Shown here piece after piece: positions 20,601 to 28,135 of a stretch of DNA of 33,646 nt; within the stretch, counting starts at the first letter, position 1, and the number at the start of each line of letters is the position of its first letter. The DNA comes from Alphaproteobacteria bacterium. Its GTDB lineage: Bacteria > Pseudomonadota > Alphaproteobacteria > Rs-D84. The translations under genes and the position numbers were made by a program. The notes under the pieces are model-generated. The model worked only from the letters and a program-made list of their open reading frames with translations. It was not told where the DNA came from and did no database searches. The DNA is taken from positions 102,256 to 135,901 of the forward strand of contig JAGBXO010000009.1 of NCBI GenBank assembly GCA_017629245.1. Reading direction: 5' to 3'.

Positions 20601-20629
20601 TGTTGCCCGCTGTTACGGGAAACTCAACA
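20601..20629 (+). other. Stem-loop before rplE (15-nt core shared with rplR spacer)
   Basis: TGTTG/CAACA (20601-20605 with 20625-20629) encloses CCCG-ctgtta-CGGG (20606-20619). The segment CCGCTGTTACGGGAA (20607-20621) recurs exactly at 22757-22771, before rplR. Confidence 0.65.
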
Positions 20630-20644
20630 TTAAGGATAAAAGAA

Positions 20645-21190
20645 ATGCAAAGCAGATTGCGTGAAATTTATGAAAAAGAAATTGTGCCAGAATTAATTAA
20701 AGAATTCGGCTACAAGAATGCGTTGGCAGTTCCAAAACTGACCAAGATTGTTTTGAATATGGGTGTTGGCGAAGCTGTGTCTGATAAAAAGAAATTGGAT
20801 GCTGCTGTTGCAGATTTGACAGCCATTGCAGCCCAAAAGGCGATTAAAACACGTGCAAAGAAGTCTATTGCTACATATCGTTTGCGCGAAGGTCAGGAAA
20901 TTGGTACAAAGGTGACTTTGCGTGGTAAACGCATGTATGATTTCTTGGATAAATTGATTACAGTTGCACTGCCACGTGTAAAAGACTTCCGTGGGTTGTC
21001 AAAGTCAAAGTTTGACGGTCGTGGAAACTATGCGTTTGGTGTTAAAGAACATTTAATCTTCCCAGAAATTTCTGTTGATAAGATTGATGCCATTCGTGGT
21101 ATGGATATTGTTATTGCTACTACGGCAAAAACAGATGATGAAGCACGTGCATTGCTGACTAAAATCGGCTTGCCATTGGTTTTGAAATAA
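20645..21190 (+). CDS. rplE: 50S ribosomal protein L5
   Basis: L5 binds 5S rRNA and contacts P-site tRNA. The 181 residues show [15 protein letters not shown], the loop [16 protein letters not shown] and RDFRGL-type [23 protein letters not shown] 20645 is chosen: it follows AAGGATAAAAGA, and the conserved N-terminus [12 protein letters not shown] begins there. A longer reading frame upstream includes the stem-loop and is rejected. rpsN follows after 20 bases. Confidence 0.97.
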
Positions 21191-22013: not shown

Positions 22014-22565
22014 ATGTCACGTGCAGGAAAATATCCAGTTAAACTGAGTGATGGCGTCACTGTCGCAATTGCAGACAACGCCGTAGTGGTTAAAGGCCCA
22101 AAGGGTGAACTGAAATTACCATTGGACACAAAAAATGCTGGCTTGGTAGATATTATTATTGAAGAAGGTCAGGTTGTTATCAATCCAAAGGATGCAGAAG
22201 AAAAGCAGTCTCGTACAATGTGGGGCACAATGGCACGCAATGTTCGTAATGCTGTTGAAGGTGTATCTAAGGGATTTGAAAAGCCAATGTATATGAAAGG
22301 TGTTGGTTATAAAGCATCTGTTAAAGGTTCACAGTTGGTTTTGGTTGCAGGTTATTCACATGATGTTATCATGGACATTCCAGCGGGTTTGACCGTTGAA
22401 ATGGGGGCAACACCAACAGAATTTACTGTTAAAGGTATGGATAAATGCTTGGTCGGTCAGTTTGCAGACAAGATTCACAAGGTTCGCAAGGCAGATCCAT
22501 ACAAGGGTAAAGGCATCTTCTATAAGGGCGAAAGAATCCGCCGCAAAGAAGGTAAGAAGAAATAA
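22014..22565 (+). CDS. rplF: 50S ribosomal protein L6
   Basis: L6 lies near the factor-binding site of the 50S subunit. The 183 residues contain the two repeated domains, with WGTMARNVRNAVEGVSKGFEK, the YMKGVGYKA segment and the C-terminal KADPYKGKGIFYKGERIRRKEGKKK. The length is slightly over the usual 177. AGGATTAAG precedes the ATG. The next gene is not rplR, as expected, but a 53-codon gene starting 27 bases after the stop. Confidence 0.98.
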   Translation: MSRAGKYPVKLSDGVTVAIADNAVVVKGPKGELKLPLDTKNAGLVDIIIEEGQVVINPKDAEEKQSRTMWGTMARNVRNAVEGVSKGFEKPMYMKGVGYKASVKGSQLVLVAGYSHDVIMDIPAGLTVEMGATPTEFTVKGMDKCLVGQFADKIHKVRKADPYKGKGIFYKGERIRRKEGKKK

Positions 22566-22591
22566 TAGTTAAAACTTAGGGAAGTGTATGT

Positions 22592-22753
22592 ATGTCGGCA
22601 CAGAAAAATGATTTTGCGTTGAAAACGCATGAAGCGTGGAAAAAGTTGGTATTAAAATTTTATTGGATACTGGCGTATGCAGGTGATTGTTTGTCTGGGG
22701 CGAAACATAGTGCAGTTGCCAAGTTTGGACGTAATAACCAAAAGCAAAAATGA
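22592..22753 (+). CDS. Small basic protein (53 aa) inserted in the spc cluster
   Basis: An open frame of 53 codons lies between rplF and rplR, where the two genes are normally adjacent. It has a good ribosome binding site (AGGGAAG, seven bases before ATG 22592) and the codon style of its neighbours. The product is basic (nine Lys, one Arg, against three acidic residues). It has a charged helix HEAWKKLVLKF, an aromatic/hydrophobic stretch YWILAYAG, a single Cys33 and a Lys/Asn/Gln-rich tail. I do not recognise it. It could be a lineage-specific ribosome-associated peptide or a small membrane-associated protein. It is followed directly by the hairpin core shared with the rplE leader. That it is translated is inferred from the binding site and position. 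Confidence 0.7.
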   Translation: MSAQKNDFALKTHEAWKKLVLKFYWILAYAGDCLSGAKHSAVAKFGRNNQKQK

Positions 22754-22772
22754 TTTCCGCTGTTACGGGAAT
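22753..22772 (+). other. Stem-loop before rplR (copy of rplE hairpin core)
   Basis: ATTTCCG/CGGGAAT around a CTGTTA loop, one G-U pair. The 15 bases 22757-22771 are identical to 20607-20621. It ends 20 bases before rplR. Confidence 0.65.
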
Positions 22773-22792
22773 TGGAAAAAAGGAAAAATAAA

Positions 22793-23149
22793 ATGTTAAG
22801 ACATTTGAATTCAGAAGAAAGACGTACTTTGGCGAATCGCGGTGCGTTGAAAAGAAAAAATCCTGGCAAGATTCGTTTGTCAGTTTTCCGTTCTGGACGC
22901 CATATTGAAGTTCAGGCAATTGATGACACAAAAGGTCACACCATTTGCGCAGCTTCTTCAAAAGAAAAAGCATTTGCAGGCAAAGGTTGGAATATTGCAG
23001 GGGCAGAATTGGTTGGTAAAGCATTTGCAGAACGCGTAGTGGCTGCAAAAATTGCTGACAATTGTTATTTTGATCGTGGTGGTTATCGCTATCATGGTCG
23101 TGTAAAGGCACTGTGCGAAGCAATCCGCGCGGGTGGCGTTAGAATATAA
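22793..23149 (+). CDS. rplR: 50S ribosomal protein L18
   Basis: L18 binds 5S rRNA and brings it to the 50S subunit. The 118 residues include KIRLSVFRSGRHIEVQAIDD and the C-terminal YFDRGGYRYHGRVKALCEAIRAGG, a slightly modified FDRGGYLYHGRVKALAD. ATG 22793 follows AAAGGAAAA; an in-frame ATG at 22772 lies in the hairpin. It follows the 53-codon gene and precedes rpsE by 23 bases. Confidence 0.96.
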   Translation: MLRHLNSEERRTLANRGALKRKNPGKIRLSVFRSGRHIEVQAIDDTKGHTICAASSKEKAFAGKGWNIAGAELVGKAFAERVVAAKIADNCYFDRGGYRYHGRVKALCEAIRAGGVRI

Positions 23150-25896: not shown

Positions 25897-25924
25897 TTGA
25901 CTTTTGTCGGATTTTGTATAAAAT
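25897..25924 (+). promoter_or_regulatory. Promoter before rpsM
   Basis: TTGACT (25897-25902), 16 bases, then TAAAAT (25919-25924). The segment TTTGACTTTTGT is shared exactly with the rpoA promoter. The leader contains hairpins AGCCCA/TGGGTT (25943-25948 with 25955-25960) and GCAGG/CCTGC (25969-25973 with 25991-25995). Confidence 0.7.
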
Positions 25925-26024
25925 TATTCGGCAAAATAGAATAGCCCATGAAAGTGGGTTCCAAGGGTGCAGGGATTAGGTGGACTGAGACCTGCGAAGA
26001 GTAAAATAAAAAGGAAAATGAAAA

Positions 26025-26402
26025 ATGGCACGTATAGCAGGTGTTAACATTCCGAGTGAAAAGCGCATTGAGATTGCGTTGCAGTATATTCACGGTATTG
26101 GGCCAGCAAAGTCGGCACAAATCGTAAAGGCGTTGAAATTGAAAGACGGTCTGCGCGCAAAAGATTTGACAGACGAGGATGTTATTAAAATTTCTAATTA
26201 CATCGAAGAAAACTTTAAAGTAGAAGGTGATGTTCGTCGCGAAGTGACAATGAACATCAAACGTTTGCAGGATTTAAAAGCATATCGTGGTATCCGTCAT
26301 CGTAACCGTTTGCCGGTTCGTGGTCAGCGTACCCAGACAAATGCACGTACACGCAAGGGGAAGCGTGTTGTGGTAGCAGGTTCTGCAACAAAGGGTAAAT
26401 AA
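26025..26402 (+). CDS. rpsM: 30S ribosomal protein S13
   Basis: S13 sits in the 30S head, contacting S19 and the P-site tRNA. The 125 residues start [20 protein letters not shown] with YIHGIG next, and contain the C-terminal tail [33 protein letters not shown] precedes the ATG. It opens the alpha block from its own promoter. A 166-base structured spacer follows before rpsK. Confidence 0.98.
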
Positions 26403-27048: not shown

Positions 27049-27077
27049 CTGCGTGGTGGTAAAGGGGTTTGTTTTTT

Positions 27078-27704
27078 ATGCTAGGTAGTTTTTATCGCAC
27101 GCTGTTGGGGTATTTTGGATTTGGAAATTTGGAACATAAATTTGTCCCGGTAAATAGGCAAGCAAAAATACAAGAAAATAAGCCATATGTTCCGCCCTTA
27201 GTTGTTTTGGGTGAAAAATTGACAGATGAAAAAATGAAACAACTGTTTGGTGTGAATTATAGCGGTATAATGTATTATAACTATGATACTAAATCATGGT
27301 GTGCGGAAAGGTATTTAGGGTATTGTATGCCGTTTCAAGATAAAGTTGAAAAAGATGCATTTGTATTTAAACAGGTGTTAGAGGCCGAGCCTGATTTTAG
27401 GAATTTTGAATTGGTTGCTTTTGCAACAATGTTGATAAAGAATCGTTATTTCCCGGGAGTAGCAAATAAGATTGTTCGTCCTTTCTTTAATCAAAAAGGG
27501 AGTGCGGTTGTTGGGACAATTGTTGTTCGTGACATAAAGGATGGAAAAATTTTACCCTTGTCGTCTGATTGGGTTGGGGTTTATTTCCCAGAAATAGGTC
27601 ATTGTGATGCGATATGGTATGGACCAAAGTGGATGACGCAAAATGGTTTGGAAATGCCAGAGTTTAGACAAAGATTAATTCGAAATTATACAAAACAACG
27701 TTAG
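27078..27704 (+). CDS. Hypothetical protein, 208 aa, between rpsK and rpoA
   Basis: I do not recognise this gene. The N-terminus (MLGSFYRTLLGYFGFGNLEHKF) could form an amphipathic or re-entrant helix but is not a clear signal peptide. The rest is soluble and aromatic-rich, with pairs such as MYYNYDTKSWCAERYLGYC and IGHCDAIWYGPKWMT. ATG 27078 is chosen because AAAGGGG lies ten bases upstream; a TTG at 27069 would overlap that site. It has its own promoter and lies between a strong terminator and an exported small protein. In most alphaproteobacteria no gene separates rpsK and rpoA, so this looks like an insertion. Confidence 0.72.
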   Translation: MLGSFYRTLLGYFGFGNLEHKFVPVNRQAKIQENKPYVPPLVVLGEKLTDEKMKQLFGVNYSGIMYYNYDTKSWCAERYLGYCMPFQDKVEKDAFVFKQVLEAEPDFRNFELVAFATMLIKNRYFPGVANKIVRPFFNQKGSAVVGTIVVRDIKDGKILPLSSDWVGVYFPEIGHCDAIWYGPKWMTQNGLEMPEFRQRLIRNYTKQR

Positions 27705-27793: not shown

Positions 27794-28135
27794 ATGAAAA
27801 GATTATTTTTCGCAGGTTTGATGTCTGTTTGCTTCCTTGGTGCAGCGTTGGCAAATTATACAATCACGGAAACGGATGTTCTTACAACATGGGAAAGTGT
27901 TGATGTTATTGTGGAACAGAATGTTCAGCCACGTCGTTTTTATTCAAGTCGTGATGTAGTACGTGCGAATTCGCGTCCATGTGCGCATAGCGCGGGTAAG
28001 CCAGTGCGTGTAAAGACTCATACAGAGCTTATTGATCATTATCAGGTTTATCAGCCTGTGACTGTTTATAAGCCAATGGGAACACAGATTCAACGTCGTG
28101 TTGTACCGGTCGAATCTTGTAATAAGTGTTTTTAA
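27794..28135 (+). CDS. Small exported protein, 113 aa
   Basis: I do not recognise the family. The protein begins with a clear Sec signal peptide (MKRLFFAGLMSVCFLGAALA, cleavage before NYT). The mature part of about 93 residues is polar, with repeated Val/Tyr/Gln strands (HYQVYQPVTVYKPMG) and three cysteines (one central, CNKC near the end), which may form disulfides in the periplasm. TAAGGG lies about seven bases before the ATG. It has its own promoter and precedes the rpoA promoter. Confidence 0.78.
   Translation: MKRLFFAGLMSVCFLGAALANYTITETDVLTTWESVDVIVEQNVQPRRFYSSRDVVRANSRPCAHSAGKPVRVKTHTELIDHYQVYQPVTVYKPMGTQIQRRVVPVESCNKCF

Follow-up and report, generated by a model that had tools for sequence, protein, structure and literature searches.

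In Escherichia coli, ribosomal protein uS8 represses the spc operon at the initiation region of rplE, and the downstream genes follow by translational coupling (PMC10931766). Outside the gamma-proteobacteria, control of the operon is unknown (PMC10931766). The products of two of its genes, uL5 (rplE) and uL18 (rplR), are 5S-rRNA-binding proteins, as is bL25 (PMC10931766). A second described group of elements is that of the r-leaders, for which PMC7247131 gives 20 candidates; these are covarying, lineage-restricted structures before r-protein genes and include simple hairpins. An RNA hairpin at the locus described here shares features with both systems.

The window, by which we mean the whole 33,646-nucleotide stretch that was analyzed, carries the S10-spc-alpha ribosomal gene cluster of a 0.93-Mb genome that is 98% complete. 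The genome belongs to the genus of Candidatus Enterousia, a gut lineage with reduced genomes in the alphaproteobacterial order Rs-D84 (PMC12306168), and the named records that share its hairpin and its gene order bear that name. Between rplF and rplR lies a 53-codon frame whose coordinates, Shine-Dalgarno-like AGGGAAG and seven-base spacing had been described correctly in a sequence-only reading of this DNA (Table 1). That reading had also singled out the filled gap as unusual, and the genus agrees. Among 120 distinct congeneric rplF-rplR gaps, window included, 104 are empty and only 44-56 nt long, 12 hold a diverged homolog of the window frame (type A, window included, one copy frameshifted), three hold a different transmembrane mini-protein (type B; L112, L113, and L139), and one (L104) holds an unrelated filler without family resemblance.

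Table 1. Positions of the small gene, the two hairpin copies and their neighbors in the window.
Feature	Position	Strand	Evidence or remark
rplE (uL5), start follows second hairpin	20645..21190	+	
Second hairpin copy, before rplE: CCCGCTGTTACGGG	20606..20619 (core 20607-20618)	+	exact core match, genome-wide scan
rplF (uL6), upstream neighbor	22014..22565	+	ORF and syntenic protein search
rplF stop, TAA	22563-22565	+	sequence reading
AGGGAAG, probable Shine-Dalgarno site of small gene	22578-22584	+	read in sequence; 7-nt spacer to ATG
Small gene, 53 aa, type A family of the rplF-rplR slot	22592..22753	+	homologs, motif, leave-one-out HMM (E 2e-9)
Small-gene start (ATG) and stop (TGA)	22592; 22751-22753	+	
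RNA hairpin before rplR	22752..22773	+	fold, covariation, 120/120 congeneric gaps
Core of the rplR hairpin: CCGCTGTTACGG	22757-22768	+	
rplR (uL18), downstream neighbor	22793..23149	+	ATG at 22793

All 120 congeneric gaps have, ahead of rplR, a hairpin with the core CCG-CUGUUA-CGG, whose CUGUUA loop is invariant within the genus. In the window, the fold takes the last two letters (GA) of the small gene's stop codon into the 5' arm, at the base of the stem. Two core matches within one mismatch occur in the window against 0.07 expected, and across the window genome the core stands before rplE and rplR and nowhere else; the rplE copy ends 26 nt before the rplE ATG. In 24 genomes that we scanned whole, the 12-mer is almost confined to these two places, before rplE and rplR; most genomes have it twice, and a few have it once or three times, which fragmented assemblies or an additional match explain. 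Over 60 distinct sequences the covariation score is 0.419, compared with 0.199 for shuffled and at most 0.195 for slid controls. Five outer pairs of the eight have changed on both sides and 89% of cells pair; the three core pairs belonged to the search pattern and carry no weight as covariation support. The many G-U pairs point to RNA.

Like the uS8 operator of E. coli, the rplE copy is a structured RNA at the rplE initiation region of the same operon. The E. coli operator mimics helix 21 of 16S rRNA, whereas the Enterousia element consists of one simple hairpin whose loop has six bases, and it differs further in that it also stands before rplR. A simple pattern search of the rRNA operon of one congener found no four-pair counterpart to suggest mimicry of helix 21, although a three-dimensional mimic is possible. 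An origin as a copy of a 16S or 23S rRNA hairpin was rejected, none being found in that operon, as was 5S rRNA mimicry, since the hairpin has no 7-mer in common with the genome's 5S rRNA. With the r-leaders, it shares a covarying secondary structure ahead of r-protein genes, but one hairpin is here used twice within one operon. Rfam 15 contains no such hairpin family and no uL5 or uL18 leader, and the main text of PMC7247131 names no leader of either kind.

Elsewhere in the family, the hairpin precedes one or both of rplE and rplR in some genera, in part with a variant loop, and is missing from others. A class-wide model search of the alphaproteobacteria, by which distant-family variants could be missed, returned only members of the genus and three weak matches away from rplE and rplR. 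A wider scan of genome contigs required the 12-mer to be followed by a site like Shine-Dalgarno and by ATG. Outside the family it showed at least seven related uncultured Clostridia MAGs from rabbit gut (L222, L226, L232, L233, L254, L264, and L273) that have the hairpin directly upstream of rplE, with a CGTCCG/CGGGCG stem; among the matches listed, eleven others outside the family lie near none of the genes tested. Chance placement next to rplE in the Clostridia is unlikely, yet this is one event only, for which either common descent or convergence could account. Overall, the comparative data make this hairpin a well-supported, conserved, and undescribed RNA element, and we regard it as a more valuable lead than the small gene.

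The small frame itself is very probably a real and previously undescribed protein gene. A profile HMM built from 10 homologs of other species, with the window sequence excluded, recovered the frame at E = 2e-9 among the 992 six-frame ORFs of the window, the next-best value being 0.73. Direct reading of the rplF-rplR gap across the genus was decisive in finding homologs, which occupy the same gap in 11 other species; a search with the single sequence gave weak relatives only, and a scan of genome contigs with the single protein gave no match. Type A proteins have the motif Y..DY[LF]SG.K followed by a basic tail, and the window copy consists of an N-terminal tail, an amphipathic helix, the motif in the form Y-A-G-D-C-L-S-G-A-K, and a basic C-terminal tail ending in QKQK. 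Convincing HMM matches are confined to the rplF-rplR gap, both within the genus and across 201 genomes of the order; those elsewhere are marginal, with stops or E > 1e-4. The sequence-only reading had called the product unlike known ribosomal proteins, and searches of Pfam, NCBIfam, and PDB bear this out with no match; PHROG matches are sub-threshold. A mobile element or paralog was rejected, as the genome contains only short chance matches elsewhere and no further copies. A frameshifted rplF end or a false rplR start was likewise rejected, both neighbors being intact and ending and starting as in relatives.

We measured selection on pairs of relatives, the window copy having no close relative and standing outside the pairs. 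The dN/dS ratio is 0.25 for the type A pair L028/L105 (Fisher p = 0.0008), in which indels are multiples of three, and 0.34 for the type B pair L112/L139 (p = 0.004). For the type A pair L064/L162 it is 0.57 (p = 0.10), and neutrality is not rejected by this pair alone. The flanking rplF and rplR mostly lie below 0.15, so the frame is coding but loosely constrained, evolving far faster than its neighbors. Homologs under purifying selection had been proposed beforehand as a check on this gene; the homologs exist, and of the three informative pairs two show the selection. Evidence against the gene was to be a frame broken by frameshifts or stops in relatives, and one of the 12 copies (L142) is frameshifted in these data, possibly through an assembly error, with the other 11 intact. 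This pattern fits a dispensable gene rather than the absence of a gene.

In nine of the 11 intact type A copies, the stop lies exactly 3 nt before CCGCTG, and in the 104 empty gaps the rplF stop lies 8-20 nt before the hairpin core, so that in either arrangement the hairpin would be covered by a ribosome that is terminating. On terminating, the small-gene ribosome would open the hairpin and hand translation on to rplR, a role that the rplF ribosome would play in species without the small gene. The stop position to which we assign this coupling role could follow from stem pairing alone. Of the 104 empty gaps, 79 have a stop triplet in the same register, as against none of 30 rplE hairpins; such triplets could be the remnant of a lost gene, but most of the difference is accounted for by pairing within the stem and by base composition.

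The same geometry is what a translated spacer would produce, that is, a frame that matters only because translating it delivers a terminating ribosome to the hairpin before rplR, its peptide being functionless. The occupation of the slot by two unrelated peptide types also fits such a spacer, profile comparison giving no support for homology between type A and type B (probability 0.1%). A functionless peptide, however, would hardly keep Y..DY[LF]SG.K across species, duplicate that motif inside the frame as in L137 and L143, or hold dN below dS in two pairs, and we consider this explanation unlikely. With moderate confidence, we instead favor a genuine accessory protein gene, one of a family that is restricted to Ca. 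Enterousia species and, within them, to the rplF-rplR gap.

For that accessory protein, the predicted properties would fit action at a surface. The window copy has a charge of +7, a maximal 19-residue hydropathy of 1.16, and an amphipathic moment of 0.42, within type A ranges of +2 to +7, at most 1.33, and 0.28-0.54 (moderate), respectively; type B copies reach a 19-residue hydropathy of 1.6-2.5. The AlphaFold model, a single long helix, has low confidence (mean pLDDT 66) and adds little. Overall, the sequence suggests a small basic protein with an amphipathic helix, and we infer that it would act at a surface, either the membrane face or RNA and the ribosome, in a useful but dispensable role. 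It would be translated alongside its r-protein neighbors from its own Shine-Dalgarno site.

The distribution of the gene bears on whether that role could be a constitutive one. It is missing from about 87-90% of congeners, among them those nearest to the window species. The genomes G065 and G152 are 97.8% identical in rplF and 98.0% in rplR at the nucleotide level, yet the gene is present in just one of them, the gap of the other measuring 46 nt. The congeners L064/L143 and L130, 98% identical in rplF and rplR, differ in whether they have a 77-aa version in which the motif is duplicated. The 12 type A copies are scattered on the rplF+rplR tree, requiring 12 changes by Fitch (unordered) parsimony or, if the gene is ancestral, 41 losses by Dollo parsimony. 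Peptide identity does not correlate with species distance (rho = -0.12, p = 0.20), and either loss of an ancestral gene or horizontal exchange among species may dominate. In L064/L162 and L028/L105 the dS of the ORF is similar to that of the flanks, which fits vertical descent. As judged from these comparisons, the small gene is a recent gain or loss and is accessory rather than a constitutive ribosomal component.

The sequence-only reading had instead proposed a new ribosome- or translocon-associated protein, made constitutively. The product is indeed small and basic and is encoded among r-protein genes upstream of secY, and in other genera of the family the slot is often filled by a mini-protein that has a transmembrane segment and a basic tail. 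A constitutive component is nevertheless hard to reconcile with absence from about 87% of congeners, the nearest included, with loss or gain at 98% rplF identity, and with fast evolution. Present in 12 of 120 congeners, the gene is not conserved in near relatives as a core r-protein would be, the databases searched gave no match to an r-protein or translocon family, and hydropathy predicts no transmembrane segment in the window copy of the kind expected for a translocon subunit such as SecE, SecG, or YajC. We assign that proposal a low probability. The patchy distribution, the frameshifted L142 copy, the L104 filler, and the fast divergence might point to a functionless insertion that is neutral or decaying. 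This is highly improbable given the leave-one-out homology and conserved motif, the in-frame indels, and the two pairs in which dN/dS is significantly lower than 1.

With an accessory gene preferred, what remains is the part played by the hairpin that it abuts. Standing before rplE and rplR, the hairpin may be a translational operator or a coupling element for the genes of two 5S-rRNA-binding proteins. A broader and quite tentative proposal, which could well prove wrong, is that in Ca. Enterousia and its relatives uS8 control of the spc operon would have been replaced by a two-site RNA operator, one hairpin for each 5S-rRNA-binding protein gene, so that the proteins of the 5S RNP are made in step. 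On the same proposal, unrelated gut Clostridia would have gained this hairpin ahead of rplE or retained it there, and the lineage-specific small genes of the rplF-rplR gap would be adapted to terminate within the second hairpin, which they would modulate.

The type A family resembles other lineage-specific small proteins of operon gaps in being short, basic, fast evolving, and of no known family; it differs from them in being restricted to one gap of the ribosomal operon and in abutting an RNA hairpin. Even in strongly reduced genomes, the most conserved bacterial operon can thus host a fast-turnover orphan gene. Other genera (L180-L185, L192, and L193), like the three type B congeners, have a different protein of ≈50 aa in the rplF-rplR gap, usually with one transmembrane segment and a basic tail; L185 has two such proteins in tandem. 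The rplX-rplE gap of several other genera of the family (L186, L189, L191, L192, and L193) holds lineage-specific small frames as well. In the window, two further frames lie between rpsK and rpoA, at 27069-27704 (211 aa) and 27794-28135 (113 aa); neither reaches the cut-off of any Pfam family, and the N-terminus of the 113-aa product is signal-like. Before rpsM, positions 25921-26057 match the alpha-operon ribosome binding site (RF00140) below threshold, at 33 bits where 38 are required.
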